Assembly: GCA_030017955.1 (NCBI GenBank)
Contig: JASEGR010000013.1
Coordinates: 1-46,699 of the forward strand
Direction: 5' to 3'
Source of the DNA: Candidatus Eisenbacteria bacterium
GTDB lineage: Bacteria; Eisenbacteria; RBG-16-71-46; JASEGR01
Length of the DNA: 46,699 bases
Shown here: positions 1 to 46,699 of the stretch, piece after piece
How the letters are laid out: each line of letters opens with the position of its first letter
Numbering within the stretch: position 1 is the stretch's first letter
Notes under the pieces: model-generated
The model's input: only the letters and a program-made list of their open reading frames with translations
Database searches by the model: none
What the model was told of the DNA's origin: nothing
Made by a program: the position numbers and the translations under genes

Positions 1-99
1 AGGAGCATCCTGAAGCGTCAGAGGGGCGAGAAGCCCCTATGAAAGTGTCGTGTCCTGGGGGAAAGACATAGACAAGAAACTTCCGGGACACGACACTAG
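1..99 (+). repeat. Dispersed structured repeat, copy 1 (5' end cut by window edge)
   Basis: This is the 3' part of a roughly 220-bp repeat found five times in the window. It contains the small hairpin AGGGGC-gagaa-GCCCCT and the long terminal hairpin whose arms are AGTGTCGTGTCC and GGACACGACACT, and it ends in CTAG. The rest of the copy lies outside the window. It ends 110 bp before the first gene. Confidence 0.9.
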
Positions 100-6590: not shown

Positions 6591-6810
6591 CAGTGTGCCG
6601 TCCCAGAAGTAACTTTACGAAATGCAGGGCCTTTCATGAGGCACACTGCCAGGGGGTATGAGGGGGTCGTGGCCGACCCCCTCAGGGGTGACAGCGTAGG
6701 GATGCGACGAGTAGGAGCATTCCGAAGCGTCAGAGGGGCGATAGCCCTTATGAAAGTGTCGTGTCCTGGGGCAAAGACATAGACAAGGAATTTCCGGGAC
6801 ACGACACTAG
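6591..6810 (+). repeat. Dispersed structured repeat, copy 2 (complete)
   Basis: Complete copy of the repeat between the binding-protein and permease genes. Hairpins: outer stem AGTGTGCC (6592-6599)/GGCACACT (6640-6647); GAGGGGGTCG (6660-6669)/CGACCCCCTC (6674-6683), loop TGGC; AGGGGC/GCCCTT with a short loop near 6733-6748; AGTGTCGTGTCC (6755-6766)/GGACACGACACT (6797-6808). It ends 9 bp before the permease ATG, so its last hairpin could hide the translation start. Confidence 0.93.
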
Positions 6811-27510: not shown

Positions 27511-27732
27511 CTAGTGTGCCGTCGCAGAGACAACTTTACGAAATGCAGGGCGTTTCATAAGGCACACTTCCAGGGGGTGTGAGGGGGTCGTGGCCGACCC
27601 CCTCAGGGGTGACAGCGAAGGGATGCGACGAGTAGGAGCATCCAGAAGCGTCAGAGGGGCGAGAAGCCCCTATGAAAGTGTCGTGTCCAGGGGCAAAGAC
27701 ATAGACAAGGAACTTACAGGACACGACACTAG
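27511..27732 (+). repeat. Dispersed structured repeat, copy 3 (complete)
   Basis: A complete copy between rpoD and purQ, bounded by CTAG at both ends: CTAGTGTGCC at the start and CACGACACTAG at the end. The long terminal hairpin has arms 27677-27688 and 27719-27730 with a 30-nt loop. The purQ ribosome-binding site AGGAGG begins at its last base pairs (27731-27736). Confidence 0.94.
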
Positions 27733-29191: not shown

Positions 29192-30619
29192 ATGACAAAA
29201 GAACTGAAACACTCGTGTGCAGTCTTCTCGACATTCGGACCGAGGGATTCATCACGGCTGGCACATCTCGGCCTTTACTCCCTTCAACACAGAGGCCAGG
29301 AATCTACTGGAATTGTCTCCTCGGATGGAAAACAATTTTTCTCCCATAAAGCAATGGGGCTTGTTTCCGATGTTTACACTCCTTCGGTCTTGAATCAGCT
29401 TCCCGGGCACCTGGCAACCGGCCATAACCGGTATTCGACCACGGGCTCAACCAGAATCGAGAATGCTCAGCCCATGATTGTGGATTACAGAAAAGGGAAG
29501 CTTGCAATTGCCCACAACGGAAATATTGTTAACGCGGCCGGCCTGCGCAATGAGTTGGAGCGTCAAGGTTCTGTTTTCCAGACCACAATGGACACGGAAG
29601 TGATACTGCATTTGGTTGCCAGGTCAAAGGAGAAGACTCTGCCCGCAATGATTCTTGAAGCGCTGTCCTGCGTTCGCGGAGCGTATTCGCTTGCCATCAT
29701 GACTGAGAATCAGATATTTGCGGGCCGGGATCCGTTTGGCTTCAGGCCGCTCACCCTGGGAAGCGTCCGCTCCAATCCTGTCGTTGCCTCGGAAAGCTGT
29801 GCATTCGATATAATAGGCGGCAGATTGGTGAGGGAGATCGAGCCTGGGGAACTGTTGCTGATCGACAAGAACGGACAGAAGAGTTTTCGCATTTCCAGGA
29901 GTGTCGAGCAGGCACGATGTATCTTTGAGCTAATCTATTTCTCGAGGCCCGATTCAATTGTCTTTGGTGAGTGCGTTGACACCGTGAGGAGAAACCTGGG
30001 CAGGACGCTGGCATCTGAGGCGCCGGCTCCCTGCGACATAGTCATAGCAGTGCCGGATTCCAGTAACTCCGCAGCGCTTGGGTTTTCTGAAGAAGCCAGC
30101 ATCAAGTTTGAACTTGGTCTCATCAGGAATCACTACGTAGGGCGAACCTTCATCCATCCGAAGCAAAAGCTGCGGGACCTGGGGGTAAGAGTGAAGTACA
30201 ATGCGGTACGCGACATCCTTAGAGGGAAGCGCGTCGCAATCGTGGATGATTCGGTGGTGAGGGGGACCACGAGCAAGAAGCTGATCAGGATGGTGAGAAT
30301 GGCCGGTGCCAGGGAGGTTCACTTCAGAGTAGCATCGCCGCAGATAATCGACCCGTGTTTCTACGGCATAGACACTCCAAGAAGGAGCGAATTGATTGCT
30401 CGAAACCTGTCCATGAAAGAACTGGCTTCTTTCATAGGCGTTGATAGCATGGAATATCTCTCGCTTGAGGGATTGAGGAACAGTGTCCGGGAGCCTGACA
30501 AGTATTGCTATGCGTGCTTCACAGGAGACTACCCGGTTACTCCTCCCAAAGAGTTCGACAAATTCTCTCTTGAAACGGCCGGGAGAAGGAAGGGAGCCAG
30601 TGTGCCGTCGCGGAAATAA
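29192..30619 (+). CDS. purF: Amidophosphoribosyltransferase PurF
   Basis: The 475-residue enzyme makes phosphoribosylamine from PRPP and glutamine, the first step of purine synthesis. The N-terminal nucleophile Cys9 follows an eight-residue propeptide, as in the Bacillus type. GHNRYSTTGS, AHNGNIVN and the PRPP site VAIVDDSVVRGTT are intact. Likely iron-sulfur ligands are present (ARCIFEL, DPCFYG, YCYAC), so an oxygen-sensitive [4Fe-4S] enzyme is likely. The last codons (SVPSRK and stop) lie inside repeat copy 4, so the C-terminus was rewritten by the repeat. Confidence 0.95.
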   Translation: MTKELKHSCAVFSTFGPRDSSRLAHLGLYSLQHRGQESTGIVSSDGKQFFSHKAMGLVSDVYTPSVLNQLPGHLATGHNRYSTTGSTRIENAQPMIVDYRKGKLAIAHNGNIVNAAGLRNELERQGSVFQTTMDTEVILHLVARSKEKTLPAMILEALSCVRGAYSLAIMTENQIFAGRDPFGFRPLTLGSVRSNPVVASESCAFDIIGGRLVREIEPGELLLIDKNGQKSFRISRSVEQARCIFELIYFSRPDSIVFGECVDTVRRNLGRTLASEAPAPCDIVIAVPDSSNSAALGFSEEASIKFELGLIRNHYVGRTFIHPKQKLRDLGVRVKYNAVRDILRGKRVAIVDDSVVRGTTSKKLIRMVRMAGAREVHFRVASPQIIDPCFYGIDTPRRSELIARNLSMKELASFIGVDSMEYLSLEGLRNSVREPDKYCYACFTGDYPVTPPKEFDKFSLETAGRRKGASVPSRK

Positions 30620-30818
30620 CCTTGCCTAATGCACGATGCCTCACAAGGCACACTGCCAGGGGGTATGAGGGGGTCGTGGCCGACCCCCTCAGGGGTGACA
30701 GCGGAAGGATGCGACGAGTAGGAGCATCCTGAAGCGTCAGAGGGGCGGGGAGCCCCTATGAAAGTGTCGTGTCCGGGGGGAAAGGCATACGCAAGGAGTT
30801 TCCCGGACACGACGCTGG
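30598..30818 (+). repeat. Dispersed structured repeat, copy 4 (complete, most diverged)
   Basis: The copy overlaps the end of purF. It starts CCAGTGTGCC and ends ACGACGCTGG: both outer bases have changed together compared with CTAG...CTAG in copy 3. The middle of the first hairpin is diverged, but its outer stem and the other three stems are kept. The loop of the third hairpin is GGGGA instead of GAGAA. Confidence 0.93.
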
Positions 30819-46622: not shown

Positions 46623-46699
46623 CTAGTGTGCCGTCCCAGAAATAACTTTACGAAATGCAGGGCGTTTCGTAAGGCACACTGCCAGGGGGTATGAGGGGG
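46623..46699 (+). repeat. Dispersed structured repeat, copy 5 (3' end cut by window edge)
   Basis: The first 77 bp of the repeat, starting CTAGTGTGCC. Within the outer stem AGTGTGCC/GGCACACT it has a perfect inner stem TTACGAAA/TTTCGTAA, better preserved than in copies 2-4. The window ends inside the second hairpin. Confidence 0.92.

Follow-up and report, generated by a model that had tools for sequence, protein, structure and literature searches.

A strand-biased, five-hairpin palindromic repeat of Candidatus Eisenbacteria with modular variants and circularly permuted relatives in Omnitrophota

Introduction

Among the short palindromic repeats that lie between bacterial genes, the CGTC-REPs, which include the RPE-type repeats of Rickettsia, occur in several phyla without a dedicated transposase (Di Nocera et al. 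2013, PMC3733652). Each is a palindrome of 20-40 bp with an unpaired terminal CGTC and a tail. GTAG-REPs and REPINs, which are associated with a RAYT (TnpA_REP), bear an unpaired GTAG tag, set inverted hairpin ends around an inner part, fold in a strand-specific manner and show no plain target duplication; the cognate RAYT gene is flanked by the repeat itself. Classical MITEs (NEMIS/Correia, ERIC and IS-derived elements) are high-copy, geneless sequences with terminal inverted repeats that are found in gene gaps, and the structured RNAs collected in Rfam combine covarying helices with fixed linkers. Here we describe an element of about 220 bp from a Candidatus Eisenbacteria genome that has traits in common with each of these systems.

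Results

The window, by which we mean the whole 46,699-nt stretch of DNA that was analyzed, is one contig (C13) of a 3.1 Mb genome in 248 contigs (G000). It carries three complete and two partial copies of an element of 217-219 nt, all on the + strand (Table 1), the partial ones arising because both ends of the contig fall inside copies. BLAST identity to the copy at 27513 is 92% for the copy at 6592 and 86% for the copy at 30599. The presence of five copies in a single orientation, with no gene inside them, confirms what a sequence-only reading of this DNA had claimed; its statement that all copies lie in gene gaps is generally correct, the exception being ORF 29192-30619, which extends 21 nt into the third copy (30599-30817). 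The four hairpins listed in that reading are all real, and a fifth one (C), located between its second and third, had been missed, giving the order A-B-C-D-E.

Table 1. Copies of the element in the window and structural parts of the first complete copy
Feature	Position	Strand	Sequence and remarks
Complete copy 1	6592..6808	+	flanks CC / AG; between SBP_bac_5 gene and BPD_transp_1 permease gene
Complete copy 2	27513..27731	+	flanks CT / AG; between sigma-70 gene and GATase_5 gene
Complete copy 3	30599..30817	+	flanks CC / GG; upstream ORF stops 21 nt inside
Right part of a copy	1..97	+	cut by contig end
Left part of a copy	46625..46699	+	cut by contig end; after LpxB gene
Hairpin A	6592..6647	+	AGTGTGCC ... 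GGCACACT; left end; solo unit elsewhere in genome (L160:2263-2321)
Hairpin B	6660..6683	+	GAGGGGGTCG-TGGC-CGACCCCCTC; two-sided changes in 7/8 modelled pairs across family
Linker, near-invariant	6684..6694	+	AGGGGTGACAG; family GGGGTRACAG, T for R in family 2
Core hairpin C	6700..6722	+	GGATGC-GACGAGTAGGA-GCATTC
Near-invariant GTCAGAGGGGC and hairpin D	6729..6749	+	AGGGGC-GATA-GCCCTT
Hairpin E	6755..6808	+	AGTGTCGTGTCC ... GGACACGACACT; right end, imperfect inverted repeat of left end

Hairpin C, also written GGATGC-GACGANNAGGA-GCATCC, reads GGATGC-GACGAGTAGGA-GCATCC in the 27513 copy and was the most useful hairpin for finding relatives; its loop, GCGACGANNAGGAGC, is common to several other repeat types. 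The element ends in AGTGT...ACACT, and the flanks beyond these ends are unrelated, such that the borders are sharp. Its terminal inverted repeats are imperfect, measure roughly 19 bp and change together by family, the left and right ends being AGTGTGCCGTCCCAGAAAT / AGTGTCGTGTCCCGGAAAT in one family and AGTGCACCGTAACATAAAT / AGTGCTGTGTCACATAAAT in the other.

Far from being confined to the window, the left-end pattern matched 55 times in the genome, as compared with 0 matches for a control pattern, so that the genome holds at least 55 copies, and the right hairpin matched about 45 times. At least 29 of the 55 left ends sit at contig ends, which explains why such genomes assemble into fragments, and runs of N occur within some copies. 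These last two features could point to an artefact of assembly or binning, an explanation that we consider extremely unlikely given that complete copies with differing flanks and point differences are found well inside contigs, and that independently assembled Omnitrophota genomes contain the same module.

A second family in this genome keeps the A-B-C-D-E order with different stems (AGTGCACCG...CGGTGCACT, GGGGGTCGAGCCCGACCCCC, TTGCGAAAGTTGCCGGTGGCAAGTTTCGAA and AGTGCTGGGGCAC...GTGACACAGCACT). In hybrids, a family 1 left half is followed by the core and right end of family 2 (L159 and L167), or family 1 is combined with a family 2 right end (L022), and further variants consist of E2-D-E1 (L173), a solo hairpin A (L160) or A-B only (L158); these hybrid, solo and truncated forms indicate that modules have been exchanged. 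Two arrays were observed in the same genome: a tandem array of related units that contain CTCTCCC...AGACAAGGTAGYC adjoins the truncated A-B copy (L158:2900-3200, contig C1), and a short-repeat array in which one frame reads VSARVNPHVLSD repeats, possibly a CRISPR array, lies behind a truncated DDE transposase (L178, contig C99).

The distribution of the element is patchy. BLASTN against 58 other genomes, mostly class-mates, revealed no relative, and a covariance model of the B-C-D module (R1) found the element in 0 of 46 class-mates. The same model matched in 30 of 384 genomes of the phylum Omnitrophota (best E 6e-17), and one Elusimicrobia genome also carries the element. A 21-nt core pattern was present in 53 contig stretches, nearly all of them from Omnitrophota, with further occurrences in Elusimicrobia, Zixiibacteriota and Elulimicrobium; two of these relatives display the full five-part plan (L056/L086 and L073/L089), and matches in Gordonia, Glycomyces and Thermaurantimonas (L070, L079 and L042) were judged to reflect chance. 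The element was not found in the viral contigs, plasmids and phages searched. No Rfam family matched at the gathering or at a relaxed threshold, and searching the literature by motif strings retrieved only papers on unrelated mammalian topics. A different repeat type that shares the core loop was seen in one Omnitrophota genome (G063; L034 and L115-L121), where a variable palindrome (e.g., AATTTTGCGAAGCAAAATT) is followed by GATCCTGAG, the core hairpin and CGAAGGACC, with at least 13 core matches in this 1.0 Mb genome bin.

Comparison with shuffled sequences yielded folding z-scores of -6.7 for the + strand and -7.9 for the - strand, which, together with the at least 55 left ends as against 0 for the control, exclude chance as the source of the repeat. 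When 44 members were aligned to the model, two-sided changes that keep pairing were found in 7 of 8 pairs of hairpin B and 6 of 6 pairs of hairpin C, with pairing maintained in 98% and 96% of cells, respectively, counts that come from related sequences and hence do not represent independent events. The covariation score was 0.380, as compared with 0.120 +/- 0.008 after shuffling; slid versions scored no more than 0.128, and the linkers GGGGTRACAG and GYCAKAGGGGC were near-fixed across the 44 members. Within family 1 of this genome, variation amounts to 1.5% in stems and 6.7% outside them. A wobble bias on the + strand was detected in the wider set (G-T 21 vs A-C 6; p = 0.006); by column, this genome alone gave a weak G-T 17 vs A-C 7, which did not differ from unpaired columns. 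Because this within-genome bias is not significant, the case for strand specificity of the fold comes chiefly from the wider set and the orientation of the copies.

Around hairpin D two folds are possible, since there are two GGGG tracts, one in the arm of D and one at 6685-6688, that could compete for a single C-tract (CCCC): one fold is hairpin D itself, and the other, favored by RNAalifold, pairs GGGG/CCCC plus GYC/GGC. Two further structural candidates were dropped: a TGAC/GTCA stem around the core, whose middle pairs fail in 20/44 and 27/44 sequences, and a kink-turn reading of hairpin C, whose supposed G-A pair shows no constraint on the G.

In Omnitrophota, the same junction is found in circularly permuted form in at least seven copies (L245, L246, L248, L251, L271 (twice) and L275). 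In these the unit is opened within the loop of B, and its D end continues straight into GGGGTTTGGGG. A tandem duplication in one of these Omnitrophota loci, L245, has left one site in both unfilled and filled form (GCGACGAA/TGGTTTC and GCGACGAA/AGCATCCCC...GGGGA/TGGTTTC, respectively), and the pair shows no target duplication beyond one ambiguous A; the copies of the Eisenbacteria genome have no unfilled counterpart to compare. Circular permutation, near-invariant junction linkers with variable helices and the strand bias would also suit a self-spreading structured RNA of ribozyme or retro type, whose circular RNA intermediate would explain the permuted forms. We regard this as very unlikely, because the element matches no ribozyme family in Rfam and has no known cleavage site or catalytic motif, and because circular single-stranded DNA accounts for the same data.

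Of 28 copies, 14 have CT/AG as the two bases on either side of the element and 5 have CC/GG. If the element were a classical MITE, a DDE transposase would cut at the roughly 19-bp terminal inverted repeat and duplicate CTAG in the manner described for IS481- or IS5-type elements, and the internal hairpins would be incidental; the concerted change of the end repeats by family and the presence of CTAG on both sides of the 14 copies are in line with this. However, CC...GG is impossible as a direct repeat, and the inner flank base of each pair co-varies between the sides (Fisher p = 0.0055, 28 copies), with the outermost bases changing together like the arms of a palindrome and not like a direct repeat; a direct CTAG duplication would not predict this. 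The pattern fits outer base pairs that belong to the element, or a duplication-free insertion in the middle of a palindromic YYRR site. In addition, the best conserved part of the element is internal, permuted copies lack such ends, and 0 of 6 DDE_Tnp_1 genes has the element's ends, for which reason DDE_Tnp_1 was rejected as the mobilizer. The full-length transposon with the same ends that the sequence-only reading had suggested looking for was thus not found at these six loci, and we consider a classical MITE unlikely.

The sole Y1/RAYT-like gene of this genome (L084:1180-1869, minus strand) is flanked by AAATAGTGACAGTCACCTATTT-type inverted repeats that are unrelated to the element. None of about 50 Y1/RAYT genes scanned by motif adjoins a copy, and a model search of Y1 loci gave one weak match (E = 0.016), located close to an IS200-type gene in L134. 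Y1 genes were present in 12/12 carrier genomes and also in 11/14 non-carriers, and a RAYT/Y1 enzyme was rejected as the mobilizer given this frequency in non-carriers and the lack of adjacency. No recurrent ORF was found beside the copies. The absence of a linked transposase holds for Y1 and DDE_Tnp_1 searches in incomplete assemblies, and a partner may be missing from the draft genome.

Copies tend to lie in the sense orientation relative to the genes around them. In this genome, the upstream gene within 70 nt, as called by a simple gene caller, was sense in 16 cases and antisense in 2, and both neighbors were sense in about 15 cases as compared with 3 in which both were antisense (p = 0.008; orientation counts were read by hand, the remaining copies being convergent, divergent or with one neighbor in reach). 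At five loci the left CTAG supplies the upstream ORF with its TAG stop codon, and at two the upstream ORF extends 21 nt into the element. Copy 1 sits between the gene for a solute-binding protein and that for its permease, a kind of operon position at which REPs are known to stabilize the upstream mRNA. This site, which resembles that of REPs in other operons, would together with the conserved covarying fold and the sense orientation be expected of a cis-regulatory or 3'-end RNA (an attenuator, mRNA stabilizer or processing signal) that is kept by selection and whose spread is secondary. Against this, the neighboring genes are unrelated and occur in all arrangements (++, --, convergent and divergent), and the hybrids, the solo hairpins and the absence from class-mates indicate spread; on these grounds we find this reading distinctly unlikely.

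In Omnitrophota, tRNA genes adjoin many copies, and the strand of the copy equaled that of the tRNA in 18 of 18 loci counted by hand. In the genome under study, no tRNA was found near family 1 copies, and a tRNA-SeC gene lies about 1.2 kb from one family 2 copy. Separate repeats with the same core hairpin were observed directly 3' of tRNA genes in five Omnitrophota loci (L032, L041, L051, L075 and L077): in their left arm the tRNA T-arm/3' end appears as its reverse complement, and their right arm is a second, direct copy of it. As the arms match their own, different tRNAs, they appear to have been made or corrected on site. Elsewhere, a unit consisting of a tRNA 3' end plus one element is duplicated in tandem, the duplications measuring about 198 bp in L254 and about 120 bp in L122.

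Discussion

Our results suggest that the element is probably a non-autonomous, structure-dependent mobile repeat, REP/REPIN-like in kind, that is moved in trans and transcribed with its neighbors. The sequence-only reading had offered two possibilities, a high-copy, non-autonomous REP- or MITE-like element and a regulatory RNA module. Copy number (at least 55 left ends), the solo and hybrid copies and the absence from all 46 class-mates sustain the first in its general form, and covariation and wobble bias back the structured, strand-specific module implied by the second.

According to the model we propose, the + strand would fold into end hairpins A and E, stem B, a variable core C and a short D, with near-invariant linkers between them. 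An enzyme encoded elsewhere would recognize this folded junction and insert the element without a plain target duplication, following a REP/REPIN-like logic applied to a larger, junction-type fold. Recombination would swap end hairpins and core modules between families. Once inserted, the element would usually be transcribed in the sense of its neighbors and, like REPs, would probably act in mRNA or beside tRNAs as a barrier formed by hairpins or as a signal for processing. A bolder reading, which we put forward as unlikely though worth stating, is that the circularly permuted, one-strand multi-helix junction is itself the transposing unit of a new mobile-element class, via a circular, single-stranded intermediate (DNA or RNA) that would be opened at the helix that happens to encounter the target.

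The family spans distant uncultured phyla and ties REP-type palindromes to a larger conserved junction. Its closest counterparts are the CGTC-REPs, which likewise are intergenic palindromic repeats of several phyla; as for them, no dedicated transposase was found for the element among Y1 genes, DDE_Tnp_1 genes and neighboring ORFs of the incomplete assemblies. The likeness extends to the E hairpin of Omnitrophota members, which contains a tandem G-A duplex, GCGAC/GGAGC, and GAGGAGCGAAGCGACGA, a string that we take to be part of the RPE-type repeat consensus. From this common string, the element and the RPE/CGTC-type repeats may share a mobilizer, and the family offers a concrete means of searching for the missing mobilizer of CGTC-type repeats. 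Unlike CGTC-REPs, the element is about 220 bp long with five hairpins, a conserved multi-helix junction and circular permutations, and in place of the unpaired terminal CGTC and tail it has the ends AGTGT...ACACT.

With GTAG-REPs and REPINs the element shares inverted hairpin ends around an inner part, a strand-specific fold and, apparently, the lack of a plain target duplication. Its ends again take the place of the unpaired GTAG tag, and the RAYT-type gene of its genome is flanked by AAATAGTGACAGTCACCTATTT rather than by the element. It resembles classical MITEs in its high copy number, terminal inverted repeats, lack of genes and location in gene gaps, and departs from them in an internal fold better conserved than expected of filler, in the absence of a parent transposon at the six DDE_Tnp_1 loci and in the lack of a duplication at the L245 pair. 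Covarying helices and fixed linkers are features that it has in common with Rfam structured RNAs. We class the element as a palindromic-repeat type that stands apart from the REP families, whose defining features it lacks, and from the classical MITE, for which duplication and partner were not established, and it apparently represents a family of folded repeats that is new to the literature and to Rfam.
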